From assembly GCF_000429785.1 (NCBI RefSeq), contig NZ_AUCN01000018.1:62001-126000 (forward strand): a stretch of 64,000 nucleotides of DNA, in the 5' to 3' direction. The DNA is from Chitinibacter tainanensis DSM 15459 (GTDB lineage Bacteria; Pseudomonadota; Gammaproteobacteria; Burkholderiales; Chitinibacteraceae). The notes under the pieces were generated by a model, which saw only the letters and a program-made list of their open reading frames with translations, ran no database searches and was not told the DNA's origin. The translations under genes and the position numbers were made by a program. This document shows positions 16,574 through 19,114 of the stretch, piece after piece (position 1 is the stretch's first letter; every line of letters begins with the position of its first letter).

Positions 16574-17401
16574 TTATTGCCGTGCTGTACGTACGTTGAG
16601 CGGCAGTTCAGCATTAAAATTAGCCCGATAAGGATTGATATCTAGTCCACCGCGGCGGGTATAGCGAGCGTATACCGCCAGTTTTAATGGTTTGCAGGCC
16701 TGTTGCAGATCGACAAAAATGCGCTCGACGCACTGCTCGTGAAACTCATTGTGGTTGCGAAATGAAATCAGATAGCGCAACAAGCTTTCACGATTAATTG
16801 GCTGCCCCGTGTATTGAATCTGGACACTGGCCCAATCGGGTTGACCGGTAACCAGGCAATTGGATTTGAGCAAATTTGAACAGAGAGTTTCGGTCACCGT
16901 GGTGGTGGAGGCATCACAGCGCAAGAGATTGGGCTGGGGTGAATAATCACTCACTTCGATATCGAGGTTATCGAGATAAAAGCCGGGTAGTTCAACAATT
17001 TTTTGCTCGGCAAACCGTTCGGTTTCGATCAATTTAACCTGAATATTCACCCCTACCGCCGCACCAATATCTTGCTTCAGCAGCGCCAGCAGCGCTTCGC
17101 TATCAGCGAGTTTGGTCTGGTTAAAGCTATTGAGATAAAGCTTAAACGACTTAGACTCAACAATGTTTGGGCTGTCAGCCGGGATTTGAAAACTGACCAG
17201 TGCGACCTGCGGTTTGCCACGCAAATTGAGCCACGACACCTCGTAGGCATTCCAATAATCAAAGCCAAAGAAAGGCAGGGCGCTGGTGATGCCAATCTCG
17301 GCGCGCTTACCGCTGCGCGGGATGGGGAACAACAACTCGGGCGCATATTCGGTGATGTAGGAAACTGTTTTGCCCAAGGGCGAAGCGTTAACGTCAGACA
17401 C
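16574..17401 (-). CDS. queF: NADPH-dependent 7-cyano-7-deazaguanine reductase (preQ0 reductase), long form
   Basis: About 275 residues with the two tandem T-fold halves of the long-form QueF. It has the catalytic Cys in [12 protein letters not shown] and the NADPH-binding [16 protein letters not shown]. It reduces preQ0 to preQ1 for queuosine in tRNA. The frame extends to an ATG at 17455. The GTG at 17401 is preferred because AAGG lies upstream and the protein then matches the family start; the longer form adds 18 unconserved residues. It follows the LexA-like gene closely. Confidence 0.92.
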
Positions 17402-17465
17402 AGGCGAGCCTTTTTGATCAGCAAAGCATGATTTTAACGGTAGCGAGGCACACATGCAGCGCTGT

Positions 17466-18053
17466 TTAGCGGTATTTACGCATCAGCCCTACCACCACGC
17501 CGTAAATCTCTAGGCTTTCGCTGGGGCGAATAATGGCAAAATCGGGGTTGTGCGGAATCAGGTAATAGCCCTGTTTATCGCGCCCCAACTCTTTCAAGGT
17601 GTATTCGCCATCAACTACGGCCACCACCAAGTCGCCAATATGCGCGGCATGGCGTTTTTCAATGACGGCTAGATCGCCATCATAAATGCCGGCATTCATC
17701 ATCGAGTCGCCACGCACCTTGATCAAAATTGAATTGGAAGGGCGCGGCATCAGATATTCGTCGAGCGAGATGGCTTCGCTCATCGCATCGTTGGCGGCCG
17801 CCGGTAAGCCTGCTGGCACATTAAAATCGGCCAACTCACGCTCAAAAAACCGCTTGGTGGGCGCAAGGCGTTTATCCGGCGTCATTTCCAGATACCCCGC
17901 AAGGGTAAGGCGCTTAACGAGCGCTGAAACCGCGGATTTCGAGGCCATACCCAGAAGTTCGCCAATAACAGCGTAAGAGGGGAGACTGCGATATTCGCTG
18001 TAATAATCCTGCAGTTTGCCCAGATATTCGTGGTCGCGATTTGGATTGGCCAT
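17466..18053 (-). CDS. LexA-like S24 family repressor
   Basis: A 195-residue protein with an N-terminal winged-helix DNA-binding region (about 23-58, [20 protein letters not shown]) and a C-terminal S24 autoprotease. The Ala-Gly cleavage site is probably A81-G82 in NVPAGLP, the nucleophile S117 in [10 protein letters not shown] and the general base K154 in EYTLKEL. It should repress its target until RecA-stimulated self-cleavage. The N-terminus lacks the usual LTxRQ start of classical LexA, so it may be a second, divergent LexA-type regulator. Two GAAC-N4-GTTC palindromes lie just upstream and probably mediate autoregulation. Confidence 0.85.
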
Positions 18054-18067
18054 GGCGGCACCCTGTG

Positions 18068-18103
18068 GAACATTCGTTCTGTTAGGTTATTGAACGATCG
18101 TTC
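18068..18103. promoter_or_regulatory. Tandem GAAC-N4-GTTC palindromes, probable operator of the LexA-like repressor
   Basis: GAACATTCGTTC (18068-18079) and the perfect palindrome GAACGATCGTTC (18092-18103) are spaced 24 bp centre to centre, 15-50 bp upstream of the repressor start. The pattern matches the Gram-positive SOS box core and not the CTGT-N8-ACAG box of E. coli LexA. The pair lies in the divergent gap with dusC and could affect both genes. Confidence 0.75.
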
Positions 18104-18172
18104 CGCTGTCAAGCACCACGGCGGCCAATCTGGTAAACTGCGTTGTTGATTTGCGAATGTGGAAAAACAGCT

Positions 18173-19114
18173 GTGCGGATTTTGCTTGCGCCCATGGAAG
18201 GCCTGCTCGATTGCGTATTACGCGACGTGATTACTCGCGCTGGCGGGATTGATGAATGCGTAACCGAATTTGTGCGGGTCAGTGGCAGCGTATTGCCCGG
18301 GCACACCTTTGAACGGATTGCCCCCGAAATCCTCACCCAAAGTCAGACTGCCTGCGGCGTGCCCGTGAAAGTACAGCTACTGGGCTCTGACCCAGCTATG
18401 TTGGCCGCCAATGCGGCCAGATTGGCGAGTTACAATCCATTTGGGATTGATCTAAATTTTGGCTGCCCGGCCAAAACGGTGAATCGCCATCGCGGTGGCG
18501 CCGTCTTGCTCAATGAACCTGAACTTATCTATCAGATTGTGAAGGCAGTACGGGATGCCACCCCGGCGCAGATCCCGGTTACCACCAAAATGCGCCTAGG
18601 CTATGAAGATAAATCGCCAGCTATTGAATGTGCGCAAGCCATGGAAAGTGCAGGGGCCCAAGAAGTGGTGGTGCATGCTCGCACGAAAGTCGAAGGCTAT
18701 AAACCGCCGGCCTACTGGGAGCACATCGCTTTAATCCGCCAGGCCGTGAAGTTTAATGTGGTGGCCAATGGGGAAATCTGGACCGTCGACGATTTAAAAC
18801 GCTGCTTAGCAATTTCGGAATGCACCGATGTGATGTTAGGACGCGGCATTGTGGCCAACCCTGGTTTGGCACTGGAAGCTAAAACTGGGCAAGCGTTAAG
18901 CTGGGAAGGTTTGCAGCCGCTGTTTACGGTGTTCTGGCAACAAGTAAAAACGCATTGCTATGCCAAATATCAGGCTGGCCGCTTAAAACAATGGCTGAAC
19001 TATCTGCGCCGGCATTACCCAGAAGCCGAGCAGCTATTTGCGCAAATTCGGACTTTGAATACAGCCGAAGAAATCGAACAGCAGTATCCCGCATTGGTCT
19101 TGGGGCCAAAATAA
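18173..19114 (+). CDS. dusC: tRNA-dihydrouridine synthase, DusC-like
   Basis: A 313-residue FMN enzyme that reduces uridine in the tRNA D-loop. It begins RILLAPMEGLLD, has the catalytic Cys in NFGCPAKTVNRHRGGA and the FMN-binding VANGEIW and MLGRGIVANP. The ITRAGGIDECVTEFVRV segment is typical of DusC (U16 in E. coli) and not of DusA or DusB. The frame opens at 18143 with TTG; the GTG at 18173 with GGAAA upstream matches the family start. Confidence 0.92.
   Translation: MRILLAPMEGLLDCVLRDVITRAGGIDECVTEFVRVSGSVLPGHTFERIAPEILTQSQTACGVPVKVQLLGSDPAMLAANAARLASYNPFGIDLNFGCPAKTVNRHRGGAVLLNEPELIYQIVKAVRDATPAQIPVTTKMRLGYEDKSPAIECAQAMESAGAQEVVVHARTKVEGYKPPAYWEHIALIRQAVKFNVVANGEIWTVDDLKRCLAISECTDVMLGRGIVANPGLALEAKTGQALSWEGLQPLFTVFWQQVKTHCYAKYQAGRLKQWLNYLRRHYPEAEQLFAQIRTLNTAEEIEQQYPALVLGPK

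Follow-up and report, generated by a model that had tools for sequence, protein, structure and literature searches.

The LexA repressor of the canonical beta- and gammaproteobacterial SOS response is self-regulated and controls recA, umuDC and recN. A departure from this scheme among the betaproteobacteria is said to have been described by Sanchez-Alberola et al. in 2015 (J Bacteriol 197:2622, doi 10.1128/JB.00035-15): the LexA of Sideroxydans lithotrophicus reportedly binds GAACGaaCGTTC, a motif shared by Gallionella, the Nitrosomonadales and the Methylophilales, and the lexA gene concerned is reportedly unrelated to the standard betaproteobacterial lexA and goes with a conventional SOS gene set; the Chitinibacteraceae are not known to figure in its abstract. 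One account describes LexA motifs as very variable and cites Sanchez-Alberola et al. (PMC8565304). Here we analyse a 64-kb stretch of a Chitinibacter genome (the window; part of contig C6 of a genome of 3.43 Mb rated 100% complete) that encodes an S24-type repressor preceded by two copies of the palindrome GAAC-N4-GTTC. This gene is very probably lexA, the gene for the main SOS repressor of this Chitinibacter-like bacterium and, more widely, of the Chitinibacteraceae as a family, and its product would read GAAC-N4-GTTC. The phenomenon itself, a noncanonical LexA in betaproteobacteria, is already published, and the present case fits the reported description; new, as far as our literature search reached, are its occurrence in the Neisseriales and an operator-bearing family of proteins of 88–124 amino acids.

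A noncanonical LexA in a betaproteobacterium, a GAAC-N4-GTTC operator and a conventional SOS set are what the locus has in common with the system reported for Sideroxydans and Gallionella; GAACGaaCGTTC is the exact site upstream of lexA in several of the loci read here. The host family is a different one, the Chitinibacteraceae of the Neisseriales, and the likeness is one of reported motif and gene set. With the canonical beta- and gammaproteobacterial LexAs the protein shares a two-domain S24 architecture with Ala-Gly, Ser and Lys, whereas operator, N-terminus and clade all differ. The operator core is that of Gram-positive LexAs of the Bacillus subtilis type, and the recognition helix starts S-x-S-(A/T)-V as it does in an actinobacterial LexA (L073), to which, however, the protein is only 36% identical and from which the rest of the helix differs.

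As the first-pass annotation of the window had pointed out, the two palindromes stand in tandem upstream of the repressor gene, which is on the minus strand; both are exact (Table 1). They lie 24 bp apart, in the order TTGACA - GCG - GAACGATCGTTC - AA - TAACCT - AACA - GAACGAATGTTC - 14 bp - ATG, a spacing which suggests that operator 1 occupies most of the -35/-10 spacer and that operator 2 falls about at the transcription start; an automatic promoter scan listed no promoter in this upstream region. With a matrix derived from 77 family sites upstream of lexA or recA, both window operators among them, the third-ranked place in the window scores 8.3. Two GAAC-N4-GTTC sites in 64 kb, against 0.44 expected, are only mildly unusual (6 of 100 shuffles had at least two), and it is because of their position and conservation, not their bare count, that the operators go beyond chance.

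Table 1. Features of the lexA locus, in positions of the window
Feature	Position	Strand	Remarks
Noncanonical LexA-type repressor, 195 amino acids	17466..18053	minus	PF00717, TIGR00498 (below its cut-off) and PDB matches to LexA across both domains
Lys154, predicted catalytic lysine	17592..17594	minus	invariant in 19/19 aligned LexAs
Ser117, predicted catalytic serine	17703..17705	minus	invariant in 19/19
Ala81-Gly82, predicted self-cleavage bond	17808..17813	minus	invariant in 19/19
Helix-turn-helix, residues 27-51, recognition helix 39-51	17901..17975	minus	in the predicted model, helices 27-34 and 39-51 are followed by two short strands
Operator 2, GAACATTCGTTC (GAACGAATGTTC on the gene's strand)	18068..18079	.	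exact GAAC-N4-GTTC near the presumed transcription start; ranks second in the window on the matrix, at 19.5
Likely weak -10 hexamer TAACCT	18084..18089	minus	3 of 6; inferred from spacing alone
Operator 1, GAACGATCGTTC	18092..18103	.	exact GAAC-N4-GTTC between -35 and likely -10; matrix score 21.0, window maximum
-35 hexamer TTGACA	18107..18112	minus	perfect consensus match; 17 bp ahead of TAACCT

The C-terminal part of the protein matches the S24 domain (PF00717) with 86.9 bits against a cut-off of 23.3. The N-terminus, as had also been remarked beforehand, is without the classical LexA start, here the LTxRQ-type start that canonical LexAs of this order show. The predicted structural model combines a winged helix-turn-helix, made of three helices and a wing of two strands, with an S24 peptidase domain; it has a mean predicted local distance difference test (pLDDT) value of 76, a predicted template modelling score (pTM) of 0.45 and an unsure stretch at residues 73–105; in a Foldseek comparison with the PDB its nine top matches are LexAs aligned across both domains, with 3k2z the best (8.6e-13). 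The alignment used for the catalytic and cleavage residues holds 19 rows, namely 18 Chitinibacteraceae sequences and one from an actinomycete metagenome-assembled genome (L073). The closest named LexA is that of Chitinibacter sp. GC72 (93% identity), followed by those of Deefgea, Chitiniphilus, Andreprevotia, Chitinolyticbacter, Silvimonas and Iodobacter, all Chitinibacteraceae and, in the NCBI classification, Neisseriales.

An orthologue of the protein is present in all 43 genomes of the family, with 75–94% identity in the other 42. Thirty lexA loci and 30 recA loci from these genomes were read. Exact GAAC-N4-GTTC lies at most 200 bp upstream of lexA in 30/30 and upstream of recA in 30/30, where TA(T/C)AAT directly follows the site in every case; CTGT-N8-ACAG was found upstream of lexA in 0/30 and of recA in 0/30. 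In a second, named collection that overlaps the first, all 18 lexA loci carry the exact site.

The genome of the window holds 18 GAAC-N4-GTTC sites, and for the 16 outside the window 5 kb around each were read (15 stretches) together with the adjoining open reading frames (ORFs). Exact sites lie upstream of recA, umuDC, recN, recG, lexA (two) and a small unnamed gene (two); the recG site stops just 4 bp before the presumed ATG. One operator type shared by lexA itself, recA and umuDC is, at the level of sequence, what would be expected of a LexA. A matrix search added dinB, with the one-mismatch operator GAACGATCGTAC (L160:1443-1454) 28 bp before the presumed GTG start; DinB and UmuC are the only PF00817 proteins of this genome. 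Three relatives from the family (G007, G023 and G037), taken together, show the motif before recN, recG, umuDC, imuA-imuB and an integron integrase gene as well. A search for the motif before recA, umuDC, dinB and imuB, which the first-pass annotation had set as the test of its idea, thus came out in its favour, exactly for recA and umuDC, with one mismatch for dinB and in one relative for imuA-imuB. CTGT-N8-ACAG occurs at 10 sites in the window's genome against 7 for its control, all 10 on stretches other than those of the named SOS genes, as compared by coordinates only.

The narrower core GAAC-R-N-N-Y-GTTC fits 10 of the 18 sites, nine of them in promoter-like places and one within an lpoA-like ORF, but the core was picked after these 18 sites had been viewed and hence cannot count as independent evidence within this genome. 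In the relatives, core sites at lexA, recA, recN, recG or the small gene account for 7 of 12 in G007; at lexA, recA, recG, umuDC or the small gene for 6 of 10 in G023; and at lexA, recA, recG, imuA or intI for 5 of the 14 examined (27 in total) in G037. The remaining sites fall within other ORFs or in unclear places and many look like chance; two precede VOC-type genes. The imuA-imuB cassette of G037 (L228:2-2066), with GAACGACTGTTC-TATTC upstream, was recognized by ImuA (187 bits, cut-off 150) and by ImuB through PF00817 (26.4 bits, cut-off 23.2). Its integron integrase (L224:2060-3120; TIGR02249, 460 bits, cut-off 265) has GAACGAATGTTC-TATATC just upstream, and it is possible, judging from this site, that the integron of G037 is under SOS control through the noncanonical operator.

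A few sites deserve separate mention. At L012:2507-2518 an exact operator lies between a gene for a YcaQ/AlkZ-like DNA glycosylase and a divergent ORF of 148 amino acids, ending 16 bp before the glycosylase ATG; the site could equally serve the opposite strand, in the three relatives none of the sites examined stood before a YcaQ-like gene, and the gene is a doubtful target. The sites in the lpoA-like ORF and at the nusA-infB junction were dropped as operators, being probable chance or hairpin. The latter is seen in two genomes (L179:1491-1524 of G023 and L011:2498), where GAAC-N4-GTTC forms part of a GC-rich hairpin-like stretch, probably no LexA site. Exact operators also stand before two different glyoxalase/bleomycin-resistance-like (VOC) genes, at L218:1591-2048 (G007) and L222:2095-2581 (G023).

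Our working model is that a LexA dimer would bind GAAC-N4-GTTC, mostly in the form GAAC-R-W-W-Y-GTTC, between the -35 and -10 hexamers or right against the -10 hexamer. Bound LexA would shut its own gene through two operators and also recA, umuDC, recN, recG and the small unnamed gene (again through two), with dinB probably included. DNA damage would give rise to RecA filaments, which would prompt the Ser117/Lys154 dyad to cut the Ala81-Gly82 bond, whereupon the gene set would be derepressed. The sequence itself gives the gene, the operators with their conservation, the gene set and the conserved catalytic residues, with no canonical LexA found; from it we infer binding, repression, RecA-triggered cleavage and induction.

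Several observations weigh against LexA as the main SOS repressor acting through this operator. Genome-wide, the 18 GAAC-N4-GTTC sites compare with 42 for the reversed control pattern, that is, no enrichment, so that counts are uninformative where position and conservation are not. Nine of these sites resemble chance occurrences, being located inside ORFs that were called mechanically or at the junction of nusA and infB. In the three relatives GAAC-R-N-N-Y-GTTC is about as frequent as its reversed control or less so (12 vs 12, 10 vs 16 and 27 vs 26). The protein scores 101.4 bits on the lexA equivalog model TIGR00498, under the cut-off of 110.95, and 19.7 bits (E 7e-4) on the LexA DNA-binding model PF01726, under the cut-off of 23.7. 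The Foldseek two-domain alignments have modest TM-scores (0.44–0.57) and root-mean-square deviations of 8–12 Å. Finally, where other families have a noncanonical LexA, recA carries an exact site in only 11 of the 27 genomes that lack a canonical LexA and in one of the three that also have one. As regards TIGR00498, the listed members of the noncanonical clade from other parts of the order reach about 90–114 bits, and because all but two of them fall below the cut-off, this cut-off mostly divides clades.

Of the alternatives, the one that survives best, improbable as it is, is a second, specialized repressor, for example one derived from UmuD that resembles UmuDAb and serves error-prone polymerases only, the SOS response being otherwise run by something else. 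A sequence search of the PDB indeed places UmuD (8gmt, 1.4e-18, C-terminal part only) ahead of the best LexA (1.5e-15), and the low PF01726 score points the same way; yet the top fold matches are two-domain LexAs and the operator stands before recA, recN and recG besides umuDC. Nor was another LexA found in the genome, where the S24 proteins number three, namely UmuD, one HTH_3-type protein and the 195-residue repressor, and where the top match of the lexA model is this repressor itself, below cut-off; a look for another lexA gene, as suggested with the first annotation, thus turned up no canonical one. The Acinetobacter UmuDAb (PMC4807011, PMC11332147, PMC7273328, PMC8565304) is comparable as an S24 repressor that can be cleaved, has a C-terminal domain like that of UmuD and occurs in genomes without LexA (here, without a canonical LexA found), but its regulon is restricted to the umuDC polymerases, unlike the operator-bearing set described above. 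For the same reasons, the operator on recA, recN, recG and umuDC and a genome with no canonical LexA found, the earlier suggestion of a second regulator with its own regulon is improbable.

Slightly less probable still is a canonical betaproteobacterial LexA whose recognition helix has drifted in this lineage. Relatives over most of the LexA length occur in 98 of 399 genomes of the order, 15 of them from the Chitinibacteraceae, with 42–65% identity outside the family, and 13 of the 15 lexA loci read from other families carry the exact motif upstream. Canonical lexA loci of the order show the opposite picture: of the 30 with the best scores, 15/30 have CTGT-N8-ACAG upstream and 0/30 have GAAC-N4-GTTC. 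Domain order and catalytic residues are the same in both types, and although TIGR00498 scores fall mostly into two groups, a few matches lie between them (about 111–168 bits), as drift would have it. However, among 150 genomes 42 have the noncanonical type and 80 a canonical LexA, with both coexisting in 10 and neither, by the criteria used, in 38; 81 of the 150 exceed the TIGR00498 cut-off, one of these (G142) through its noncanonical protein. In the tree the Chitinibacteraceae LexAs (99/98) lie inside the noncanonical type, and the canonical LexAs are set apart across a 100/99 branch, although the tree holds only five of the 30 canonical loci, and UmuD and the actinobacterial row form long branches of unsure placement. 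On this evidence the protein is a member of a noncanonical LexA clade common to many families of the order and separate from the LexAs that go with CTGT-N8-ACAG. The earlier proposal of a main LexA with changed specificity is therefore upheld as to the main LexA; the changed specificity falls away with the tree and its five canonical rows, which argue for a separate clade rather than an altered canonical LexA. Chance palindromes in place of a special operator would agree with near-chance counts in window and genome, but merit next to no credence, given that the site is kept before lexA in 30/30 loci and before recA in 30/30 while the protein diverges by up to 25%.

Returning to the noncanonical LexA as main repressor, its role in the other families of the order may be narrower, since recA control is not universal outside the Chitinibacteraceae, as the 11/27 and 1/3 genomes with an exact recA site indicate. 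One genome (G241) holds three noncanonical LexA paralogues, nearly full length and 52–55% identical to that of the window. In G215 (C53:48996-49469) and G296 (C1:149944-150381), both of family f26, LexA-like frames with internal stops are seen, the other listed matches there being shorter S24 ones; these frames are possible remnants of lexA.

These findings extend the reported rewiring of LexA to a family of the Neisseriales. No work on LexA or SOS in Chitinibacter, Deefgea or Iodobacter was found among the matches listed in the open-licence literature. For other members of the Neisseriales, a 2011 paper reports lexA as absent from Laribacter, Chromobacterium violaceum and Neisseria, suggests its loss in a common ancestor and leaves open whether the SOS response there is constitutive or absent (PMC3135505). 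A full but differently worded SOS set in the Chitinibacteraceae makes this proposal of ancestral loss testable, and it fits the view that new repressors come to govern rebuilt SOS networks (PMC8565304). The GAAC-N4-GTTC operator can also help to pick out genes whose function is unknown, such as the small gene, and to point to SOS control of an integron integrase.

Of particular interest is this small gene (L002:2568-2909, plus strand, equivalent to C1:455767-456108), which encodes 113 amino acids and whose two operators start 79 and 29 bp before the ATG, 50 bp apart. Homologues were found by protein search in 25 of the 43 family genomes, and a profile search, which covered 15 family genomes, added two; the homologues together are at loci L136-L159, L242 and L243. 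Against a universal role, 18 of the 43 genomes gave no protein-search match; the profile search covered four of these and found the gene in two. At least one exact operator lies within about 100 bp before the gene in all 27 family homologues found, and 18 have two or more (range one to three), even though identity to the copy of the window's genome falls to 34–52% in the 20 others aligned. Because synonymous divergence (dS) exceeds non-synonymous divergence (dN) about fourfold or more, as it does in the nine pairs compared, we regard this as a real gene. Outside the Chitinibacteraceae one of 384 genomes (G156) has a weak, distant homologue, with no operator upstream.

For the 21 members compared with databases, no match was stronger than E 0.02 in Pfam or PHROGs, or than E 0.9 among PDB sequences; two members were compared with NCBIfam, one with slightly off bounds, and neither gave a match. 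Three members tested for hydrophobicity showed no strongly hydrophobic segment. A small, fast-diverging protein under presumed double repression is reminiscent of the SOS cell-division inhibitors SulA, YneA, SidA and SosA (the last the subject of PMC6851548). We tentatively suggest, with less than even confidence, that the small protein is an unrecognized SOS effector nearly confined to the Chitinibacteraceae, plausibly a SulA-like division inhibitor that LexA would repress through one to three operators; the function in cell division is a guess by analogy. If true, this branch of the Neisseriales would keep, together with LexA, a complete SOS response that includes a checkpoint it has devised for itself.

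The surroundings of lexA are alike in the window and in a locus of one relative (L182). In both, a similar gene, QueF-like by eye, lies downstream of lexA (16574-17455 in the window), and a divergent gene resembling, again by eye, that of a tRNA-dihydrouridine synthase flanks it on the other side (18143-19114).
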